Positions 4,827 through 7,600 of a DNA stretch of 64,000 nt are shown here, one piece after another; position 1 is the stretch's first letter, and each line of letters begins with the position of its first letter. A program made the translations under genes and the position numbers. A model generated the notes under the pieces. The model was not told the DNA's origin and ran no database searches. It saw nothing but the letters and a program-made list of their open reading frames with translations. The DNA is from Pseudanabaena sp. PCC 7367 (GTDB taxonomy: Bacteria; Cyanobacteriota; Cyanobacteriia; Pseudanabaenales; Pseudanabaenaceae): assembly GCF_000317065.1 (NCBI RefSeq), contig NC_019701.1:2800001-2864000 (forward strand), in the 5' to 3' direction.

Positions 4827-4907
4827 GCGGATGTGGCGGAATTGGTAGACGCGCTAGATTTAGGTTCTAGTATCTTTGATGTGGAGGTTCGAGTCCTCTC
4901 ATCCGCA
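4827..4907 (+). tRNA. tRNA-Leu(UAG)
   Basis: A complete 81-nt class II cloverleaf. The acceptor arm GCGGATG pairs with CATCCGC (4900-4906), discriminator A. The anticodon stem CTAGA/TCTAG encloses loop TTTAGGT with anticodon TAG. A variable arm and a T-arm with GGTTCGAGTCC are present. CCA is not encoded. Confidence 0.97.
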
Positions 4908-5223: not shown

Positions 5224-6453
5224 TCAAGCATCCAGGGCGATCGCCTGATTGATCGCTTGTTTCTCCTGCACCCGATTTTGGTACAACTTAACCTCAGAAG
5301 GTCTAAGCCCGCTGATAATGCGGAAATTATCCGCTTCCATACCCCGCATCAACATTTCAATTCCCCAGGTATGACGGGTTTGCTCTAAGGCAATCTCGCT
5401 CCCATCTGGATTACGCAAATCCCGACACCAATCAAACCAAAATCGTTGCAGATCCTCCACCCGGATCGGTCGATGCTCATCCACCAAAAACATCGCCTCC
5501 TGGCTATCTTTACGATTTTTGAGGTAGGTTGCCAGGGGACTACTCTTAGCGGAACCATAACGATGCCCCAGAATCTTATTATTGATTGGCACCACCCGTT
5601 CATTGGTGGACTGCGCTGAATTTTGCCCATCAAGGCGATCGCTATCGCTACCACCAATCCGCAATAGCCTGGCCTTTTCGCTAACCAAAATGTCTTGACG
5701 ACGCAACCGCACTAATTCTTCAACCTTGATCCCAGTGGCAAACAACAAATAGGCGATCGCATAGGGCATTGCGCCTTGCTGTTTAGCATTAAGCATAATT
5801 TTGCGCACAGTTGCTTCAGGGATTTCGTTCAGGTTACTAACCTGATCAAGATTCTGGCCAACCAGATCAACCAAAGTATTAATAAAATCATCCTGATTCG
5901 ACCAGATCGCCTGGGCATCACTGGTCAGGGCAATCACGGCATAGCCCATGATGCAGGTATTAATTAACGCAGCTAGCTTGAGCGGTGGTACTGGCAAATC
6001 TAGATCAGCCTGGGTGATCAATTCCTTAAGGGCATGGGAAATCGATTGATTGACCTGCACTACCCCTTGTGCCAAAGCCTGTTTACTGGCGGCAGGGTAT
6101 TGACCAGCCTCGCCCACCAGCGATCGCAACAATTCCGGCACACTTTCCAGCGCATGTACCGAACTTTTGATGTAATAGCTTAAAAAACGGCTAAGATCGC
6201 CTTCACTCGACACACCAGAAATCATCAAAGACTCCCCGACCTGTGTAAGCAGCAAATATTTTTGCAAACATTCTTGCAACACTGCTAATAGTAACCCATG
6301 CTTGTTACCGAAATGACGAAACAGCGTAACTTCATTGATCGCCGCCTGCTCAGAAATCTGCCGTGTTGTAGTCTCGGTAATTCCCTGGCGTGCAAATAGT
6401 TCTAATGCAGTATTGATAATTCTTTGACGAGTCGGAACACGAGTTGCAGCCAT
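5224..6453 (-). CDS. TetR-family regulator fused to a degenerate tyrosine-recombinase domain
   Basis: Counting from the chosen ATG (6453) the protein has 409 residues. Residues about 8-55 form a TetR helix-turn-helix (TTRQISEQAAINEVTLFRHF); residues about 65-200 look like a TetR ligand/dimer domain. Residues about 212-395 resemble the catalytic domain of phage-type integrases: ATGIKVEELVRLRRQDI matches box I but with K for the catalytic Arg, LEQTRHTWG matches the HxxR box with E for His, GH is GL, and the Tyr position (KLYQNRV) is kept. Most catalytic residues are lost, so strand exchange is unlikely and a DNA-binding or dimerisation role is more plausible. The frame opens upstream to 6543, but that start would run into the palindromes at 6481-6497 and 6539-6555; MAATRVPTRQRI is a typical TetR start. 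It is divergent from desC, suggesting control of lipid desaturation. Confidence 0.82.
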   Translation of the reverse strand: MAATRVPTRQRIINTALELFARQGITETTTRQISEQAAINEVTLFRHFGNKHGLLLAVLQECLQKYLLLTQVGESLMISGVSSEGDLSRFLSYYIKSSVHALESVPELLRSLVGEAGQYPAASKQALAQGVVQVNQSISHALKELITQADLDLPVPPLKLAALINTCIMGYAVIALTSDAQAIWSNQDDFINTLVDLVGQNLDQVSNLNEIPEATVRKIMLNAKQQGAMPYAIAYLLFATGIKVEELVRLRRQDILVSEKARLLRIGGSDSDRLDGQNSAQSTNERVVPINNKILGHRYGSAKSSPLATYLKNRKDSQEAMFLVDEHRPIRVEDLQRFWFDWCRDLRNPDGSEIALEQTRHTWGIEMLMRGMEADNFRIISGLRPSEVKLYQNRVQEKQAINQAIALDA

Positions 6454-6480: not shown

Positions 6481-6497
6481 TGCAAGTGTTGCTTGCA
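6481..6497. promoter_or_regulatory. candidate TetR operator, copy 1
   Basis: A 17-bp imperfect palindrome TGCAAGTG-T-TGCTTGCA (6 of 8 half-site pairs symmetrical), 27 bp upstream of the TetR-fusion start. It shares its left half exactly with the second palindrome at 6539-6555. Divergent TetR genes commonly bind such sites. The assignment is inferred. Confidence 0.6.
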
Positions 6498-6538
6498 TTA
6501 TTAACCATAGCAAGGTTACTCTGTTTGGAGTAGCAAAA

Positions 6539-6555
6539 TGCAAGTGTCACTTACA
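6539..6555. promoter_or_regulatory. candidate TetR operator, copy 2
   Basis: A 17-bp near-perfect palindrome TGCAAGTG-T-CACTTACA (7 of 8 half-site pairs), 58 bp from copy 1 and 163 bp upstream of desC. The pair sits in the divergent promoter region between the regulator and the desaturase, so one protein could control both genes. Confidence 0.65.
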
Positions 6556-6718: not shown

Positions 6719-7600
6719 ATGACTTCTACTAGCTCGCAAGAACCGTTTAAGATGAGGTGGCAAGACCTTCACTGGGTCAGTGTTGCTTTTTTTAGCATTG
6801 TGCATATCGCTGCCGCGATCGGTGCCCCCTTCCTCTTTACCTGGAAGGCTCTAGGCGTAATGATTATTTTGCATTGGATGCTGGGTAGCTTGGGCATTTG
6901 CCTGGGTTATCACCGCATGCTCAGCCATCGTAGCTTTGATGTGCCTAAATGGCTAGAGCGGGTTTTTGTAACCCTCGGCGCAATGGCGATCGAAGGAGGA
7001 CCAATTTTTTGGGCTGGCACCCATCGGATGCACCACGGTTTTACCGAAGACACCGAAAGAGATCCCTACTCAGCTAAGCGCGGTTTGTGGTGGAGCCATA
7101 TGGGTTGGATTCTACGCGCCAGAGAAGACCATTTTGGCCTCGAAAGCAACAGAAGATTTACCCAGGATCTAATTAACGATCCCTACTATCTATTTCTGGA
7201 TCAGAACTTTTTGCTCTTGCAAATCCCCTTGGCTGCCATTCTTTTCTTAATTGGTCAAACCCAAGGTCAGGGATTAGAATTCATGTTCTATGGCGTGGTT
7301 GTTCGCGCTGTGTTCCTGTGGCATTCTACCTGGTTGATCAACTCCGCCTGCCACAAATGGGGCTACCGCAATTTTGCAGATGCCGATGACCACGCCACTA
7401 ATCTATGGTGGGCAGCGATTCTTACCTATGGTGAAGGCTGGCATAACAATCACCACATGTATCCTAAATCTGCCAAAGCCGGCTTAAATTGGTGGGAAAT
7501 TGACCTAACCTGGCAAGCGATCCGCTTCCTTAACTTCCTTGGTCTGGCTAAGAATATTCATATTGATAAGCCCTGGCAATCTAAACCAGCTAAGAGCTAG
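6719..7600 (+). CDS. desC: acyl-lipid delta-9 desaturase
   Basis: DesC introduces the first double bond (delta-9) into fatty acids esterified to membrane glycerolipids, using ferredoxin electrons; it is an integral membrane di-iron enzyme. The 293 residues carry the three histidine boxes: HRMLSH (65-70), HRMHH (102-106) and HNNHH (242-246), plus hydrophobic segments around 20-60, 80-92 and 165-205. The ATG at 6719 follows a long leader downstream of the two palindromes. It is divergent from the TetR-fusion gene, its likely regulator. Membrane fluidity and temperature response would be the natural context. Delta-9 specificity is from family knowledge. Confidence 0.93.
   Translation: MTSTSSQEPFKMRWQDLHWVSVAFFSIVHIAAAIGAPFLFTWKALGVMIILHWMLGSLGICLGYHRMLSHRSFDVPKWLERVFVTLGAMAIEGGPIFWAGTHRMHHGFTEDTERDPYSAKRGLWWSHMGWILRAREDHFGLESNRRFTQDLINDPYYLFLDQNFLLLQIPLAAILFLIGQTQGQGLEFMFYGVVVRAVFLWHSTWLINSACHKWGYRNFADADDHATNLWWAAILTYGEGWHNNHHMYPKSAKAGLNWWEIDLTWQAIRFLNFLGLAKNIHIDKPWQSKPAKS

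Follow-up and report, generated by a model that had tools for sequence, protein, structure and literature searches.

A cyanobacterial TetR regulator with a catalytically degraded tyrosine-recombinase domain: a candidate dedicated repressor of the desaturase gene desC

Related regulators and the architecture of the fused protein

Transcriptional control of unsaturated-fatty-acid and desaturase genes by TetR-type repressors has been described for DesT of Pseudomonas, for FabR, and for MadR of mycobacteria, and of these DesT and MadR sense acyl-CoA (PMC8872791). Another repressor, MrpR, is built on the tyrosine-recombinase fold; it has lost the R-I, His and H/W residues of the catalytic set, keeps the Lys and the Tyr, and represses without recombination, and its authors have suggested that recruitment of the recombinase fold may be widespread (PMC10516654). 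Recombinase parts have likewise been reused in regulators among the domesticated recombinases of eukaryotes such as the Crypton-derived genes (PMC3212892), although their eukaryotic setting, domains and origins differ from those of the cyanobacterial fusion considered here.

The fused gene lies in a 64,000-nucleotide stretch of the genome of Pseudanabaena sp. PCC 7367 (the window, which refers to the whole stretch analysed) and its features are collected in Table 1. Like DesT, FabR and MadR the fusion combines a TetR fold with, presumably, a desaturase as target and acyl-chain sensing, and like DesT and MadR it is linked to a desaturase gene with operators at the desaturase promoter; whereas those proteins consist of one module of about 200 residues, the fusion adds a 200-residue recombinase-fold domain and twin operators. 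The FabR NCBIfam model matches it at the level of the helix-turn-helix alone, far below the cut-off. With MrpR/YopR (SPbeta) and SroF (phi3T) it shares the placement of an inactive recombinase fold, R-I changed and Tyr kept, within a transcriptional repressor, which the fusion presumably is. MrpR, however, keeps its own core-binding domain and acts in a prophage, whereas the fusion has TetR as its DNA reader and belongs to a chromosomal lipid gene locus. No description of a TetR-recombinase fusion regulator was found in the open-access literature, where absence is not proof, and the papers searched describe no repressor devoted to the step by which cyanobacterial membrane lipids are first desaturated. 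To judge from these comparisons, the joining of TetR and recombinase fold in a chromosomal, conserved one-promoter regulator would be the new part.

The original prediction that a TetR regulator is fused here to a degraded tyrosine recombinase is borne out by both Pfam domains and by the recombinase fold. Within the 409-aa ORF, TetR_N (PF00440) is placed at residues 12-58 (E 1.1e-13) and Phage_integrase at residues 212-375 (E 5.7e-9), each above its gathering score. Residues 8-60 are the best-conserved part of the fusion, with a mean major-residue frequency of 0.84 among distinct relatives, and the N-terminal half has the TetR fold, with a Foldseek target TM of up to 0.81 (QacR) and further matches to RutR and FadR. 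The N-terminal core-binding domain of tyrosine recombinases is absent, residues 1-205 being TetR.

The C-terminal half (residues 212-409) resembles XerA, XerC, XerD and XerH in both fold and sequence. Sequence alone suffices for a profile of this half from 52 relatives to detect Xer and Int structures, the best match being the archaeal Xer 4a8e (E 1e-12, whole domain covered), and 49 of the 52 C-terminal halves match Phage_integrase when taken singly. The AlphaFold model of this half (pLDDT 93.6, pTM 0.89) is paired with XerA by Foldseek at E 7e-9 and by VIA-align at Z 19.6 over 172 residues with an rmsd of 3.2; further structural neighbours are XerH, integron integrase, Tn1549 Int, Cre and lambda Int, and MrpR/YopR and SroF appear in the same list at Z 11-12.5. 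Structure prediction against Xer, proposed beforehand as a check on this half, has returned the XerA/XerH/Cre fold. The model of the whole protein has a pTM of 0.63, versus 0.89 for the C-terminal domain alone, and the predicted arrangement of the domains is uncertain. Unlike the Xer proteins, the protein has no catalytic set, no core-binding domain and no dif-like site that could be seen, and its recombinase fold is fused to TetR.

Table 1. Features of the regulator-desC locus (positions in the window; strand +, - or. for palindromes)
Feature	Position	Strand	Basis or remark
TetR / pseudo-tyrosine-recombinase fusion gene	5224..6453	-	409 aa, ATG start, full-length relatives
TetR helix-turn-helix, residues 8-60, NEVTLFRHFGNKHGLL	6274..6432	-	Pfam TetR_N
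TetR core (ligand/dimer) helices, residues 61-200	5854..6273	-	AlphaFold helices; Foldseek matches RutR, QacR, FadR, FasR
Tyrosine-recombinase catalytic-fold domain, residues 212-409, catalytically degraded	5227..5820	-	Pfam, profile, model
Conserved C-terminal helix, residues 385-408, candidate dimer-dimer contact	5230..5301	-	Predicted helix and conservation; role suggested by analogy with the Xer/Cre tail
K243 codon, at the catalytic Arg I place	5725..5727	-	S/T in most relatives
Codons 357-360 (EQTR), at the HxxR place	5374..5385	-	Profile alignment, relatives
L383 codon, at the H/W place	5305..5307	-	Profile alignment, relatives
Y391 codon, at the nucleophilic Tyr place	5281..5283	-	Y in 123/136
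Operator O1, TGCAAGTGTTGCTTGCA	6481..6497	.	Conserved palindrome; candidate, comparative
Putative desC -35, TTGCAT	6493..6498	+	Inside O1 and one base beyond; comparative
Putative desC -10, TACTCT	6517..6522	+	18 bp after -35; comparative
Operator O2, TGCAAGTGTCACTTACA	6539..6555	.	Conserved palindrome; candidate, comparative
desC-type fatty acid (acyl-lipid) desaturase, presumed target	6719..7600	+	FA_desaturase Pfam, E 6e-21

Catalytic decay, conservation and losses of the recombinase half

From the R-K-H-R-H/W-Y set of tyrosine recombinases the 409-aa protein has kept only R-II (R360) and the Tyr (Y391), and the His of HxxR is E357. The R-I place holds S in 91, T in 29, K in 5 and R in 2 of 136 distinct full-length sequences, and both sequences with R lack other catalytic residues. 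E, A or D mostly stands in for the His of HxxR, and W, C, I or L is found at the H/W place. R-II has given way to Q in 80 sequences and is still R in 40; the Tyr is kept in 123, with F in another 10. None of the 136 carries a complete catalytic set. The residue-by-residue reading of catalytic loss made from the single sequence was correct throughout for this protein, yet the second Arg that it found retained is kept in only a minority of the family.

Purifying selection acts on the recombinase half: over 26 close pairs its median omega is 0.114, and that of the TetR half 0.023. Invariant non-catalytic positions in the recombinase half include R286, N291, P306, W339, Q358 and W363, and its most invariant stretch, RxVPxNQWILGKRYGSYTxNPLTxWLKSRKD, is not a recombinase catalytic box. 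The domain is weakly basic to near-neutral, its median net charge being +2.

The 136 full-length fusions are all cyanobacterial, and the fusion is conserved from Gloeobacter-like genomes (G047, G078) to Nostocales. The profile matches 216 of 291 Cyanobacteriia genomes at 1e-15; among the matches listed, the full-length fusion is present in roughly half of the 291 genomes, with one copy in nearly all of these, and the remaining matches are related TetR genes. A 244-genome sample of the phylum, for which the share from other classes is not stated, showed no relatives outside Cyanobacteriia. The fold has apparently been retained since near the base of Cyanobacteriia. A lipid desaturase had been read beside the regulator gene, and the gene so named is indeed an FA_desaturase by Pfam; it is divergent from the regulator in the window and is the only such gene in this genome at 1e-20. 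A desC-type desaturase adjoins the regulator at every orthologous locus read, including those without the recombinase half, and the conservation of fusion and desC linkage that had been looked for in related cyanobacteria extends through Cyanobacteriia.

The fusion could have been a rare accident between halves that are separate genes in relatives; instead, the TetR-only forms branch from within the fused family, and a tree of the TetR halves needs three losses of the recombinase half. These fall in the family f5 (including G038 and G106), in the genus g31 (G057 and G469), and in G006, a member of the window's own family. A profile of the C-terminal domain finds no separate copy of it in the TetR-only genomes G038 and G057. 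After the loss, the TetR halves of f5 and G006 stand on long branches (1.24 and 1.44; the median for end branches is 0.21), which would fit the relaxation of a constraint but can have other causes. Such natural domain losses in three lineages offer ready-made comparisons for the role of the domain.

Several gene forms were encountered at the margins of this family. In four draft genomes, G203 (L173), G239 (L174/L188), G463 (L217/L221) and G467 (L220/L222), the fused gene is split into overlapping or adjacent ORFs, which may represent assembly or sequencing errors or decay. A second TetR family (L182, L183, L184 and L189), of about 215-225 aa and matched by the profile at 1e-31 to 1e-38, has neither a recombinase half nor an operator or desC nearby; it is placed outside the fused family, as a paralogue. 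In G002, which has one clear operator, a separate 107-aa ORF (L118, 4335-4658) closely repeats the last approximately 54 residues of that genome's own fused regulator and constitutes a partial gene copy away from desC.

Candidate operators and the putative desC promoter

The two palindromes noticed upstream of the regulator, O1 at 6481-6497 and O2 at 6539-6555, are real and are conserved family-wide. At least one copy of the 17-bp palindrome TGYAAGTNNNACTTGCA is present in all 98 distinct intergenic regions, and exactly two copies in 93, compared with 0.0005 per region after shuffling. O1 lies 28 bp upstream of the regulator start codon. The start-to-start distance from O1 to O2 is 46-48 bp in most lineages (leaving a gap of 29-31 bp), 50-53 bp in Pseudanabaena relatives and 58 bp in this window.

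A promoter can be recognized by comparison in the same regions: TAnnnT follows TTGCAn after 16-18 bp in every one of 92 regions versus 12% in shuffled spacers, and a TGn extension of the -10 is present in 65 of the 92. O1 would accordingly hold the putative -35 of desC and O2 would lie at or just past the start site. With O1 on the -35 and O2 downstream of the -10, the layout is that expected of a repressor. A dif-like or half-site element between the operators was considered and rejected, the -10 being the one element clearly conserved there. In two Gloeobacter-like genomes the regulator and desC are co-directional, and here both operators lie before desC and none before the regulator; since the twin operators stay with desC, they belong to desC first.

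When TGYAAGYNNNRCTTRCA was searched for without mismatches, 13 of 16 genomes had it at two places, G200 and G147 at one and G014 at three; the reversed-pattern control gave none in 15 of the 16 and one in G087. Because the motif occurs exactly twice genome-wide in 13 of 16, the regulator looks like one dedicated to a single promoter. Both places are the desC pair in 11 of these 13 genomes, the exceptions being the TetR-only G038 and G106. A wider regulon was rejected, there being no motif beyond the pair in most of the 16 genomes, and the many matches that this genome has at two mismatches are about as frequent as those of the reversed-pattern control.

In G038 (L244, 2748-2764) and G106 (L245, 2753-2769) the second exact operator is not at desC. 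It precedes, by about 45 bp, the probable start of a conserved gene for a membrane protein that looks DUF502-like by eye. This gene is possibly a new target gained in the TetR-only lineage.

Proposed repression of desC and the role of the recombinase fold

The preferred reading, to which a probability of about 0.6 is assigned, is that the fusion protein is a dedicated repressor of desC, with its TetR half on the operators and the dead domain strengthening the complex. Here, the TetR half would dimerise and each dimer would read one palindrome TGYAAGTNNNACTTGCA, so that the two operators would bracket the desC promoter, O1 covering the -35 and O2 lying at or just beyond the start site, and their occupancy would shut out RNA polymerase. 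Release is assumed to follow the binding of a lipid-derived ligand to the TetR core; the analogy of DesT and MadR would make an acyl-ACP or acyl-chain signal the most likely one. The dead recombinase domain would owe its retention to a strengthening or locking of the complex, most probably through contacts between the two operator-bound dimers, as in an Xer/Cre synapse, and possibly through extra contacts to promoter DNA, as in MrpR. Repression of desC, which we infer, is well supported by the anatomy of the locus, and we infer likewise the nature of the ligand and a role of the dead domain in dimer-dimer or DNA contact.

In the synapse, Xer and Cre domains touch each other through their C-terminal helices; contact between dimers is hence the guess that asks for the fewest assumptions, and the near-neutral charge of the domain favours such a contact a little over a direct one with DNA. 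A more specific version, that the dead domain was captured early in cyanobacteria as a coupling module joining two dimers across the desC promoter in the manner of an Xer synapse, is tentative and probably goes too far; if true, a recombination synapse would have been turned into a gene switch for membrane lipid desaturation. In either version a fold that once served DNA recombination appears to have found a new use in the control of membrane fluidity.

The number of operators bears on this role. Among fused loci, 172 have two operators, three have one and three have three (some genomes being counted twice), and among the fused genomes G002 and G044 have one clear operator each. After loss of the domain a single operator is found in the genus g12 (six species) and in G006, and two operators are kept in G057 and G469 of g31, and in G460 and G124 (frame-shifted), two other members of f5. 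Strict coupling between the domain and the second operator is ruled out by G057, G469, G460 and G124, and since these TetR-only genomes keep two operators the domain is not strictly needed for the two-site arrangement. The link between the recombinase domain and the second operator thus seems suggestive, not strict. The cooperative binding to separate operators that had been proposed from the sequence may still be what the domain confers, twin operators being the rule wherever the fusion is intact. The operator spacings (46-48, 50-53 and 58 bp) do not keep one helical phase, which speaks against one rigid bridge, and the spacing may follow from promoter geometry alone.

The retained domain could also act without bridging the dimers. 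As a second DNA-binding module it might grip the promoter between the operators, as MrpR, with R-I changed and Tyr kept, binds DNA via its recombinase fold (PMC10516654). MrpR/YopR and SroF are among its structural neighbours, most lineages have 29-31 bp between the two operators, and Y391, which corresponds to the Tyr that matters for binding in MrpR, is kept in 123 of 136 sequences; however, the domain is near-neutral in charge, it lacks the N-terminal core-binding domain that serves recombinases as a DNA clamp, and the letters conserved between the operators are those of the -10 element, shared recombinase-type half-sites not being visible, so that this reading, although the chief alternative, is considered unlikely. 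Somewhat less plausible is a sensor or docking module, for example for acyl carrier protein, unrelated to DNA or to operator pairing. The position of the most invariant stretch outside the catalytic boxes would suit it, and to our knowledge cyanobacteria lack the acyl-CoA signals used by DesT and MadR, which makes another mode of sensing plausible, yet no docking partner is indicated and two of the three domain-losing lineages have single-operator members, which a pure sensor would not predict.

Two further readings set aside the repression of desC or the regulator itself. TetR proteins can activate, and the closeness of O1 to the regulator's own start codon would allow that the protein activates desC, or mainly targets its own gene with desC linked passively; this is improbable given the repressor layout of O1 and O2 and the Gloeobacter-like genomes, in which the operators are found with desC and not with the regulator gene. 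The recombinase half could lastly belong to a mobile-element integrase, still active or decayed only recently, beside a tRNA-Leu gene (4827-4907) and fused by chance to a TetR gene, integrases often adjoining tRNA genes. This has next to no likelihood and was rejected, as the fusion and its desC linkage are kept from Gloeobacter-like genomes to Nostocales, the recombinase half evolves under purifying selection (omega 0.11) with no complete catalytic set, and a tRNA adjoining the regulator is absent at most of twelve other loci.

The preferred reading, a dedicated repressor of desC, is directly testable, as the candidate comes with a defined operator and promoter layout and, in the majority of the genomes checked, with one target only. 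The family also shows that a recombinase catalytic fold can persist very long without its chemistry, in an ordinary one-component regulator outside phages.

The tRNA-Leu gene noted above (anticodon tag) lies about 320 bp from the recombinase-like gene, and the same tRNA adjoins the regulator in G002 and not in most others checked. Its position could mislead an annotation pipeline into a false call of an integrase/tRNA island.
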